A DNA stretch of 64,000 nt from Clostridia bacterium (GTDB lineage Bacteria > Bacillota > Clostridia > Oscillospirales > Acutalibacteraceae). The DNA is taken from NCBI GenBank assembly GCA_017435865.1, contig JAFSEF010000130.1, positions 85,067-149,066 of the forward strand, written 5' to 3'. Numbering within the stretch: position 1 is the stretch's first letter; each line of letters opens with the position of its first letter. A program made the translations under genes and the position numbers. This document shows, piece by piece, positions 46,893-49,874 of this stretch. Below the pieces are notes generated by a model, which saw nothing but the letters and a program-made list of their open reading frames with translations, ran no database searches and had not been told where the DNA came from.

Positions 46893-47996
46893 TTATTTCA
46901 GTCGTACGGGAAGAATCAGATACATAAAATGATCACCTTCCGTAGGAACAATCAGACAGGGAGAAACAGGACCGTTCAGGTCAATAAGAACTTCGTCTGC
47001 TTCACACGAACGCAGTGCATCCAGTACATAGCGGCTGTTAAAACCGATTTCGGTGGCTTTGCCGGTTACGGAAGTCTCCATACGATCGGTCGCACTTCCA
47101 AGTGCCGTAACAACGGACATACGGATGGAATCATCCGAGAAATTAAAACGAAGCGGACTTCTTGTTTTTTCCGAAACAATAACACTTGTTCTTTCAATAC
47201 AATCCATCAGTTCCCTTGTGTTGACTCTGACCGTCGTGGTCTTTGCTGTGGGAACAGCGGATTTATAATCAATAAATTCACCTTCCAGCAATCTTGAAAC
47301 AATATTGTAATTGCCGATGGAGAATATGATGTGACGCTTGCTCAGACGAATGGTAACAGGTTCATCATCGTCATTCAGCAGCTTGACAACTTCGTTAAGG
47401 GTCTTACTGGGAACAATAAAGGAAAATACTTTGCCGTTATAATCCACAAATTCCTTGCGAATTGCCATTCTGTACCCGTCAAGGGCAACCAGACGCAGCT
47501 CCCCGGGAGAAAATTCAAATTTGACGCCTCTGTGAACCGTTTTTGCTTCGTCAACAGATACGGCAAAAATGGTTTGCAGAATCATACTTCTGAGTACCTT
47601 GTTGGGAATGGTTATAACATTTTCATCACCGAGCTTCGGAAGTTCGGGATATTCAGCTGCATTCATACCCACAAGTGTGTATTCGACATTGCCGCTTTCT
47701 ATGGTGCAGATATTTTTAGGATTGATATCCAGTGTCATTCTTTCATCAGGCAGATGACGAAGAATATCAACAAGCATTTTTGCATTGATAACCGAGGCAC
47801 CTTCTTCTTCAATTCTTGTTTCAAAGGTGGTCGAAATACCGAGTTCAAGGTCATATCCGCACAATTCAATTCTGCCGTCGTCTGTGGTACGCATCAGAAT
47901 ACCGTCCAGCAGCGGCATGACCGCACGGGTAGGTACACAACGCTGTACATTCTGGCAGACCTGTGTAAGAACGGATGTGTTGCAAATGATTCTCAT
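46893..47996 (-). CDS. dnaN: DNA polymerase III beta subunit (sliding clamp)
   Basis: The 367-residue clamp that holds the replicative polymerase on DNA. It starts MRIICNTSVLTQVCQNVQRC with a GGGAGGA ribosome binding site at 47996; an upstream in-frame ATG has none and lies in the origin region. Family patterns include RTDDGRIELCGYDLELGI, VSVDEAKTVHRGVKFEF, ALDGYRMAIR and the C-terminal VPTEGDHFMYLILPVRLK (expected MPMRL-type end). Second gene of dnaA-dnaN-yaaA. Confidence 0.97.
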   Translation of the reverse strand: MRIICNTSVLTQVCQNVQRCVPTRAVMPLLDGILMRTTDDGRIELCGYDLELGISTTFETRIEEEGASVINAKMLVDILRHLPDERMTLDINPKNICTIESGNVEYTLVGMNAAEYPELPKLGDENVITIPNKVLRSMILQTIFAVSVDEAKTVHRGVKFEFSPGELRLVALDGYRMAIRKEFVDYNGKVFSFIVPSKTLNEVVKLLNDDDEPVTIRLSKRHIIFSIGNYNIVSRLLEGEFIDYKSAVPTAKTTTVRVNTRELMDCIERTSVIVSEKTRSPLRFNFSDDSIRMSVVTALGSATDRMETSVTGKATEIGFNSRYVLDALRSCEADEVLIDLNGPVSPCLIVPTEGDHFMYLILPVRLK

Positions 47997-48059
47997 AAGC
48001 TTCCTCCCATAGCAAACGCTTTTGATAAAACCAAAAAACGCAGTGCTGTGTGTATAAAT

Positions 48060-48260
48060 GGATAATAGGAATATATAGTAGTAGTAGTAGGGGGTGTCGA
48101 AAGTGTTGATAACTCTCTGCAAACCTTATTTCAAAGACTTCGCAGCCATTTTTTACCTGTCAAAACATTTTCGGACAAATTGTTGAAAACAAGGTGGTAA
48201 AAAATGGCTTTTGAATCTTTTGATACTTTCATTGTTGAAAGTTGATAAGTTGTTGAAAGA
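48060..48260. other. oriC: Candidate oriC unwinding region with DnaA-trios and DnaA boxes
   Basis: In the dnaA-dnaN gap five TAG trinucleotides (48077-48091) are followed by GGGG and, 14 bases on, the 9-mer TGTTGATAA (48104-48112; TTATCAACA on the other strand). Four related 9-mers follow at 48181, 48234, 48240 and 48251 (TGTTGA or AGTTGA cores). Trios, G/C block and box in this order match the B. subtilis unwinding element. To the left is AT-rich DNA. The region up to 48290 contains no gene. Confidence 0.8.
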
Positions 48261-48290
48261 ACAAGTCTTTTTTTTTCTCTTTTCAGAGCT

Positions 48291-49604
48291 TTAAAAATCA
48301 TTGTCTTCAATGTTTTTCATCAACTCATTGACAGATACTTTGAACTGGCCGTCGGTTTCCATTCTGTTTTCCACCTGTTTTACGGAATGGTGTACGGTAG
48401 CATGGTTTTTGCCGCCGAAGTAGCTGCCTATATTCTGCAGCGGAAGGTCTGTGCTTTCGCGGATGATGTACATAGCGACCTGTCTTGCTACGGAAATGTT
48501 GGCATTTCGTTTGTCACTCTTGATGTCATTAACGGAAACACCGTAATTGGAAGCGACTTCTTCAATGATATGTTCAATCGTCATGCCGATGGGTTTGCTG
48601 TCGGAAATCAGATCTTTGATCACATCCTGTGCAGCTTCAATGGTGGGATTGATGTTATGGAGCTGCTTGAGTGCATGCAGTTTTTTGACACTGCCTTCAA
48701 TCTGACGGATGTTGTTCTTGACTCGTTCGGCAATGTATTCAACAACCGAATCCGAAAGTTCAAGACCGAGATTCTGACTTTTTCTTCTGATGATTGCAAT
48801 TCTTGTATCGATATCGGGCGGCTGAATATCAGCAATCAGGCCCATTTCAAAACGTGTACGCAGACGATCGTCAAGGGTTTCCATTTTTCTGGGCGGACGG
48901 TCGGAAGTCAGAACAATCTGTTTTCCTGCGTTGGTCAGAGCATTGAAAGTGTGGAAAAATTCTTCCTGCGTTGAAATACGTGAACGGATAAACTGAATAT
49001 CGTCCACAAGAAGTGCATCGACATTGCGGTATTTCTGGTGGAACACTTCCGTGCTTTTTTCGGCAATGTGGTGAATGAGTTCGTTCGTGAATTCTTCACC
49101 GGTTGTATAAATGATGACCGCATTGGGATCTCTTTTTTTAAGTGCATTGCAGATTGCAAGCATGAGGTGGGTTTTGCCGAGACCGGATCTTCCGTAAATA
49201 AGAAGCGGATTGAATTCAACACCGGGGAAGTTGGCTACACGGTTACAGGCTGCATGTGCAAAACGGTTGGATGAGCCAACGATGAAATTGTCAAAAGTAA
49301 AACCGGACTGTGCATTGCCGTCGTTGCTTTCGGATTCTTCTTTCTGATTGTTGACGGGAAGATTGACAAGCACGTCAATTTCAACAGGAAAACCGAGAAC
49401 ATCCGTAAAAGCCTGCACAAGCACGGGCATGAATTTTTCAATGATTATATTACGTTTAAAGTCGGAATTGACCATCAGAACAGCCGTGTCATTTTCAAAA
49501 CGGACAGGTTCAATGGGAGCCAACCAAATGCTGTAAATAACGTTTGTTACTCTTTCCTGCAAAAGAGCACACACCGCTTTCCAGACATCTGCAAAAGAAT
49601 CCAT
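48291..49604 (-). CDS. dnaA: Chromosomal replication initiator DnaA
   Basis: A 437-residue AAA+ initiator. Domain I is at the N-terminus (residues 1-75) and the linker is short and polar (NQKEESESNDGNAQ). Walker A is IYGRSGLGKTHLM at about residue 140, Walker B LLVDDIQFI, sensor regions TSDRPPRKM and RLRTRFEMGL. Domain IV has the signature GSYFGGKNHATVHHSV. The box-contact residues Asp-His-Thr of E. coli DnaA are Asn-His-Ala here. The ATG at 49604 is chosen because GGAGG lies directly before it, overlapping a second in-frame ATG four codons upstream. Confidence 0.98.
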   Translation of the reverse strand: MDSFADVWKAVCALLQERVTNVIYSIWLAPIEPVRFENDTAVLMVNSDFKRNIIIEKFMPVLVQAFTDVLGFPVEIDVLVNLPVNNQKEESESNDGNAQSGFTFDNFIVGSSNRFAHAACNRVANFPGVEFNPLLIYGRSGLGKTHLMLAICNALKKRDPNAVIIYTTGEEFTNELIHHIAEKSTEVFHQKYRNVDALLVDDIQFIRSRISTQEEFFHTFNALTNAGKQIVLTSDRPPRKMETLDDRLRTRFEMGLIADIQPPDIDTRIAIIRRKSQNLGLELSDSVVEYIAERVKNNIRQIEGSVKKLHALKQLHNINPTIEAAQDVIKDLISDSKPIGMTIEHIIEEVASNYGVSVNDIKSDKRNANISVARQVAMYIIRESTDLPLQNIGSYFGGKNHATVHHSVKQVENRMETDGQFKVSVNELMKNIEDNDF

Positions 49605-49638
49605 AGAGTCCTCCATTAAATTATTGTGAATCTAATTT

Positions 49639-49667
49639 ATATTATCATAATAACTACAAATTTTCAA
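49639..49667 (-). promoter_or_regulatory. Promoter of dnaA
   Basis: On the minus strand TTGAAA, 17 bases, TAATAT. The remaining AT-rich dnaA-hom gap (49605-49874) shows no DnaA box of either form. Confidence 0.55.
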
Positions 49668-49780
49668 GTACTAAATATATAAATAATTATAAATACAGTA
49701 ATTATATCACTTATTTTTAGTAATTTATTAGTTAATACATCCTCATCAGATTGTTGTAATCTTCATTTTTAATTTTACTA

Positions 49781-49809
49781 TTTACTTTTTTCTTATGATA
49801 GTGTAAAAT
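49781..49809 (+). promoter_or_regulatory. Candidate promoter of hom-recF
   Basis: TTTACT, 17 bases, TAAAAT, 65 bases upstream of the hom start. AT richness makes this a weak call. Confidence 0.4.
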
Positions 49810-49874
49810 AAATAGAAAATATAAAATAGCCAAAGAATATCATTTTTTGGATAAAGAACAGGAGTATTATTCTT

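Follow-up and report, generated by a model that had tools for sequence, protein, structure and literature searches.

A basal unwinding system with an unusual DnaA-box spelling between dnaA and dnaN of a Clostridia bacterium

The gap between dnaA and dnaN in a draft Clostridia genome contains two abutting DnaA-like boxes, a 4-bp GC block and five perfect DnaA-trios, flanked by AT-rich DNA. By sequence criteria this element is a confirmed and ordinary basal unwinding system (BUS), written in a less ordinary box dialect, and it is very probably the site where the chromosome opens for copying. Its main box breaks with the usual consensus at position 6, a deviation that is the rule across the genus, and the recognition helix of DnaA is changed; neither feature appeared in the first-pass annotation of this DNA. 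The box shift apparently runs in step with the change in the protein that reads the boxes. Drawing on sequence, location, spacing, strand, conservation, the skew minimum, box statistics and DnaA residues, we are highly confident in the joint reading of the element as the BUS of the chromosome's oriC, in which boxes with a shifted docking code would anchor trio melting.

The window, meaning the whole 64,000-nucleotide stretch analysed, is part of contig C120 of the draft genome. Leftward reading frames encode dnaA (48291–49616, minus strand; 441 amino acids) and dnaN (46893–47996, minus strand; 367 amino acids), and the neighbouring homoserine dehydrogenase and recF genes run rightwards. The dnaA–dnaN gap spans 294 bases (47997–48290). 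On its plus strand, five TAG trinucleotides, which read as 3'-GAT-5' trios, occupy 48076–48090; the first-pass annotation had recognised the run but set it one base too far right, at 48077–48091. GGGG (48091–48094), TGTCGAAAG (48095–48103) and TGTTGATAA (48104–48112) follow to the right. The coding strand of the two genes accordingly reads TTATCAACA, CTTTCGACA, CCCC, five CTA and TATATATTCC. GGGG and a box had been described correctly, but the short spacer placed between them is itself a weak second DnaA-like box, CTTTCGACA (48095–48103, minus strand, G at position 6), identified by the genus scorer and by alignment. It abuts the upstream box, TTATCAACA (48104–48112, minus strand, A at position 6; scans and alignment), whose edge lies 13 nt from the first trio, giving the order box, box, 4 nt, trios. 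The DNA beyond the trios (48050–48075) is AT-rich, as had been reported, and is a candidate unwinding element.

Boxes with A or G at position 6 (A6, G6) also occur nearer to dnaA. The box count located GTTTTGACA (G6, 48158–48166), TTTTCAACA (A6, 48181–48189) and two copies of CTTTCAACA (A6, 48233–48241 and 48251–48259), all on the minus strand, giving six such boxes on the dnaA strand, four A6 and two G6. The boxes at 48158–48166 and 48181–48189 are enclosed by an inverted repeat (48133–48157 and 48196–48220) with 25-nt arms that are 80% complementary and 38 nt apart; within the arms, the 13 bases GCCATTTTTTACC are perfect except for register.

The mechanism and order of the BUS have been described (PMC6669920), and the definition in PMC8287927, which found it in 1755 of 2070 origins, gives a box-to-trio spacer that peaks at 10–13 bp and reaches at most 16 bp. 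Where a BUS is expected to hold at least three trios (3'-NAN-5', GAT preferred), five perfect ones are present here. A box should lie within 16 bp of them, and TTATCAACA, one mismatch from TTATCCACA, lies 13 nt away; a tandem second box with at most four mismatches and then about 4 bp of GC are represented by CTTTCGACA, three mismatches from TTATCCACA, and by CCCC. The boxes face dnaA and the trios face dnaN, as in B. subtilis, C. difficile and 20 of 23 congeners. The element resembles the incC origin of B. subtilis in its location between dnaA and dnaN, its box-box-GC-trios-AT order, its strand and its trio sequence, which is 5'-CTACTATTACTTCTACTA-3' in B. subtilis (PMC6669920, PMC8287927, PMC10201434); the GC motif is described for B. 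subtilis in PMC8235120. The order, polarity and location claimed at first pass are thus borne out. It differs from incC in that its boxes carry A or G, not C, at position 6 and its five trios are all perfect. C. difficile oriC2 likewise has trios, 5'-CACCTACTACTATTACTACTATGA-3', between dnaA and dnaN; there, DnaA-dependent melting beside the trios was detected with P1 nuclease (PMC7561715).

Along the 149,066-base contig, cumulative G−C declines for 133 kb, bottoms out at window position 48039, 37 bases from the trios, and climbs again over the remaining 16 kb. The curve covers a single contig of the draft, with about 16 kb to the right of the origin. The GC-skew check proposed at first pass therefore puts the minimum beside the element, consistent with a chromosome origin. 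Together with conservation in the genus, this contig minimum supports the earlier suggestion that replication opens here.

Firmicutes origins may be bipartite, with a box cluster (oriC1) upstream of dnaA in addition to oriC2. B. subtilis has two box regions (PMC8235120), unlike the window, in which the 258 bases upstream of dnaA (49617–49874) contain no match to NTWTNNACA. In the genus as a whole, the 300 bp upstream of dnaA hold 7 A6 boxes and 6 with C at position 6 (C6), compared with 106 A6 and 7 C6 before dnaN, while 28 Firmicutes of the usual type have 40 A6 and 103 C6 upstream of dnaA. Having found no recognisable boxes upstream of dnaA in the window, we rejected a bipartite arrangement, and the origin looks one-part; a second cluster farther away, or too diverged to recognise, may still exist. 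These 258 bases, which separate dnaA from homoserine dehydrogenase, are extremely AT-rich, with a GC fraction of 0.17.

A run of five TAG trinucleotides could in principle be a microsatellite, produced in an intergenic gap by chance or slippage and with no role in replication. Slippage does generate trinucleotide runs, and the trios are often imperfect in relatives, since three of 23 congeners lack the block and 12 of 23 fail a strict box–trio pattern. This pattern was defined as NTWTN[ACG]ACA and, 3–16 nt further on, a block that opens with CTA and has CTA in at least three of five trinucleotides. Its only match on either strand of the 149,066-base contig is the element, and 30 dinucleotide shuffles of the contig gave none. 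The TAG run itself occurs once in the draft genome (3,106,240 bases, 133 contigs, 84.81% complete), and its backwards control has no match in the same draft.

Conservation tells further against a microsatellite. Of 26 genomes in the genus set, 23 were usable: G019 and G024 lack dnaN on the contig that carries dnaA, and G020 has only a dnaA fragment. A looser scorer detected box-box-spacer-trio blocks in 20 of these 23 intergenic regions and none in L010, L023 and L025. Under the strict pattern, 11 of the 23 regions matched on the coding strand; the opposite strand gave 0 of 23, and 50 shuffles gave none. The same one-strandedness was seen in 75 named loci among the matches listed (33 coding, 0 other) and in 98 family loci (43 coding, 1 other). 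Box, spacing and trios are retained in congeners whose DnaA is only 48–62% identical, and the interval between the second box and the trios is 4 nt in 13 of 20 blocks, 5 nt in three and another length in four. Compared with G003, G004 and G005, the best-conserved 40-bp window of the intergenic region is the element (identity 0.90–0.93; 0.55–0.73 elsewhere), and 48067–48117 aligns to G004 with 86.8% identity within dnaA/dnaN DNA of about 67%. In the four-way alignment both boxes are conserved, as are the two outermost trios at each end. The conservation check suggested at first pass thus came out in favour of box and trios, with the reservation that in some relatives the GC block is not GC-rich (for example aaca or tacc). 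Given the single occurrence in 3.1 Mb, the uniqueness of the pattern, the fixed spacing on one strand and the adjoining skew minimum, the microsatellite explanation is already contradicted, and we regard it as extremely improbable.

The boxes of this origin differ from the classical DnaA box TTWTNCACA, which has C at position 6. To describe this across the genus, NTWTNXACA was counted on both strands within the 500 bases that precede dnaN, with the mean of shuffled sequences as expectation. The 23 genus origins contain 106 A6 boxes (9.4 expected), 21 G6 (3.1), 7 C6 (4.2) and 7 with T (5.8); A6 and G6 are enriched and C6 is at chance level. Among 28 Firmicutes whose recognition helix is of the usual type (Pro423, RDHTTV), the same count gave 101 C6 (3.6 expected) and 20 A6 (6.3). 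The genus A6/G6 boxes lie on the dnaA strand in 118 of 127 cases, and on the opposite strand in 9. Within the 20 genus blocks, position 6 of the first box is A in 15, G in five and C in none, and that of the second is A in 11, G in seven and C in two.

The intergenic region does hold one textbook-like box, TTATACACA (48049–48057, minus strand), its single zero-mismatch match to TTATNCACA. This leaves room for a different reading, in which the origin is genuine and TTATACACA is the main docking site of DnaA, the A6/G6 motifs being, for example, repressor sites. That box, however, lies on the wrong, dnaN side of the trios, where it may be a chance match, and TTATCCACA occurs 16 times in the whole genome against 21 for its backwards control. 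With C6 boxes at chance in the genus, and with an A6/G6 motif occupying the first-box register ahead of the trios in each of the 20 blocks, we rejected TTATACACA as the main docking site; it is an unlikely candidate. The A6/G6 boxes are the favoured docking sites.

Other lineages also have their own box spelling: TTTTCCACA in cyanobacteria, AAACCTACCACC in Thermotoga maritima and TYATTCACN in H. pylori (PMC10225481, PMC8235120). These 9-mers retain C6, whereas here C6 is lost and Asp433 of DnaA has become Asn. A single TTATCAACA box is described on the linear chromosome of Cyanothece (PMC4674748), not as a rule of the lineage. No paper on an A6/G6 spelling in this family turned up among the open-access papers searched.

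The residues of DnaA that contact bases are 399, 423, 432–435 and 438–439, with Asp433 highly conserved (PMC5043019, PMC8235120). With E. coli numbering transferred through the RDHT motif, as in PMC7561715, the comparison with B. subtilis shows that in the window DnaA Pro423 is replaced by Gln, Arg432 by Lys, Asp433 by Asn, Thr435 by Ala and Ile438 by His, and that Arg399, His434 and His439 are retained. Its recognition helix reads GGKNHATVHH instead of GGRDHTTVIH. C. difficile, by comparison, has the E. coli box-reading residues and a second cluster, oriC1 (PMC7561715), and the window has neither. A precedent is found in Epsilonproteobacteria, where box specificity has been proposed to track changes in helix 5; there, variation falls on residues 435 and 438–439 and spares the Asp-His pair (PMC5043019), whereas here residue 433 itself changes. 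The residues aligned with Ile190 and Arg264 of B. subtilis are Ile and Arg (positions counted by hand on the alignment), and the Walker-A motif GLGKTH and the Arg aligned with R264 are invariant in 22 DnaA rows. The protein thus has what the trio mechanism needs. Among the matches listed, the closest named DnaA (60%) belongs to a metagenome-assembled genome labelled Oscillospiraceae bacterium Nc350_bin166, and is identical to that of family member G033. One draft of the same genus, G024, carries a second DnaA (L028, G024:C331) that is 38% identical, with a usual GGKDHSTV helix and TTATCCACA sites alongside; it is probably contamination of the draft.

The relation between residue 433 and box position 6 was followed in a larger sample. 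A contig search with the single DnaA returned no relatives, and a second, built on the genus alignment, contributed the best 80 of 590 loci. Of 150 family genomes 146 matched, and 109 new loci were taken (29 with the search plus 80), 98 of them with dnaN downstream. The combined set comprises 214 loci with dnaA, 196 of which have dnaN downstream; removing five identical DnaA rows for the trees left 191, and residue 433 is D, N, T, K or S in 167 of these. The residue tallies still include the five duplicates. Outside the genus, 66 loci with Asp433 have 194 A6 boxes (29.8 expected), 88 C6 (12.1) and 6 G6 (8.3), and 14 loci with Asn, Thr, Lys or Ser433 have 54 A6 (7.4), 4 C6 (2.7) and 11 G6 (1.7). 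The 19 loci with His433 have 66 A6 (8.9), 24 C6 (3.2) and 4 G6 (2.5).

Across the 191 rows, C6 tends to disappear and G6 to appear together with the loss of Asp433. Row-wise Fisher tests gave 2.3e-7 for any G6 and 6.1e-7 for no C6, and 0.006 and 0.0005, respectively, outside the genus. Eight independent pairs on supported branches pointed in the same direction (2.9 versus 0.2 for G6; 3.7 versus 1.0 for no C6), without significance at this number (median p 0.25 and 0.375). Pagel tests of dependence on residue 433 gave p 4e-4 (G6), 9e-4 (no C6) and 7e-6 (both); they are post hoc, because the two traits were picked after the counts were known. They were run with our own code on a FastTree tree built from DnaA with the final 95 residues trimmed off and a single Planococcus row as root, as three of 12 comparisons. 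The others included position 432 (p 0.016, 0.064 and 0.005), position 435 (p 0.007, 0.012 and 0.24) and position 434, where no p fell under 0.15. An earlier count, of 'A-only' boxes by residue, had shown a row-wise association, with no significance by independent pairs. Against the link, three congeners that keep Asp433 (KDHSTV) likewise have A6 boxes (18, with 2 C6 and no G6), and five loci (L072, L084, L147, L184 and L224) have lost it and still have C6 boxes. Asp433 is thus not required for A6, and the cleaner signal is the gain of G6 and loss of C6 where Asp433 is absent.

From this co-variation we infer that residue 433 helps to set the base at position 6. Tentatively, and at somewhat less than an even chance, the code would pair Asp433 with C or A, and Asn, Thr, Lys or Ser433 with A or G, C being lost. 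C and A both present an amino group in the major groove, which may be the chemical reason for the Asp433 preference; the contact of Asp433 described in PMC8235120 is at box position 7, not 6. The shift could instead be real and owe nothing to a changed code, having arisen by AT-rich drift with relaxed affinity while residue 433 changed for unrelated reasons. The enrichment of A6 in other genera that keep Asp433 speaks for such drift, as does the lack of significance in the independent pairs, but drift fails to account for G6, which is in excess in the genus and in the 14 loci with a changed residue and falls below expectation in the 66 loci with Asp433; the Pagel tests also oppose it. We consider drift a serious possibility, though distinctly short of even.

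The genes around the origin differ in their divergence. Against G003, G004 and G005, identity is 93–94% for GyrB, 87–92% for Hom and 76% for RecF, but 65–67% for DnaN and 61–62% for DnaA, while G003 and G004 compared with each other give 92, 92, 78, 89 and 88% for GyrB, Hom, RecF, DnaN and DnaA. The dnaA–origin–dnaN block (46893–49616) may have been replaced by transfer, or may have changed fast. In the tree the window DnaA falls just outside G003–G005 with weak support, and an AU test of its union with them (p 0.29) did not reject the union.

By analogy with B. subtilis and other work, a sequence of binding, filament formation, melting and helicase loading can be proposed. DnaA would dock on double-stranded DNA at the abutting boxes (48104–48112 and 48095–48103), fixing direction and register, with the docking code shifted by A (or G) in place of C at position 6 and the recognition helix changed alongside. 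A DnaA-ATP filament would then extend onto the plus strand, with each TAG (3'-GAT-5') trio taking one subunit, stretching that strand and melting 48076–48090 and the AT-rich flank towards dnaN. The four further same-strand boxes between dnaA and dnaN may feed or strengthen the complex. Helicase loading would follow melting. Another contig (L241, G000:C77, 985–3144) encodes a DnaD-type protein of 388 residues with two PF07261 (DnaB_2) matches, adjoined by a 328-residue frame with the P-loop GETGLGKTH, which by this motif looks like a helicase loader of the DnaI/DnaC type.

For the trios, the element adds one more clean comparative case in which trio opening is kept while the remaining origin drifts: the boxes, the recognition helix of DnaA and the upstream half of the origin have all moved, and the register of box, box, 4 nt and trios has stayed. 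If the box shift is true, this DnaA should prefer, among TTATCAACA, TTATCGACA, TTATCCACA and TTATCTACA, the A6 site and then the G6 site, with C6 weak. If residue 433 sets position 6, DnaA boxes would be predictable from the DnaA sequence, origins could be found in many uncultured relatives with boxes unlike TTATNCACA, and the co-evolution of an essential protein with its DNA site could be tested by a single in vitro swap. Searches with TTATCCACA would then under-read these origins. Should the code hold, the family would offer natural swaps of DnaA–oriC specificity with trio unwinding untouched, because the line at residue 433 has been crossed several times (10 changes on the tree).
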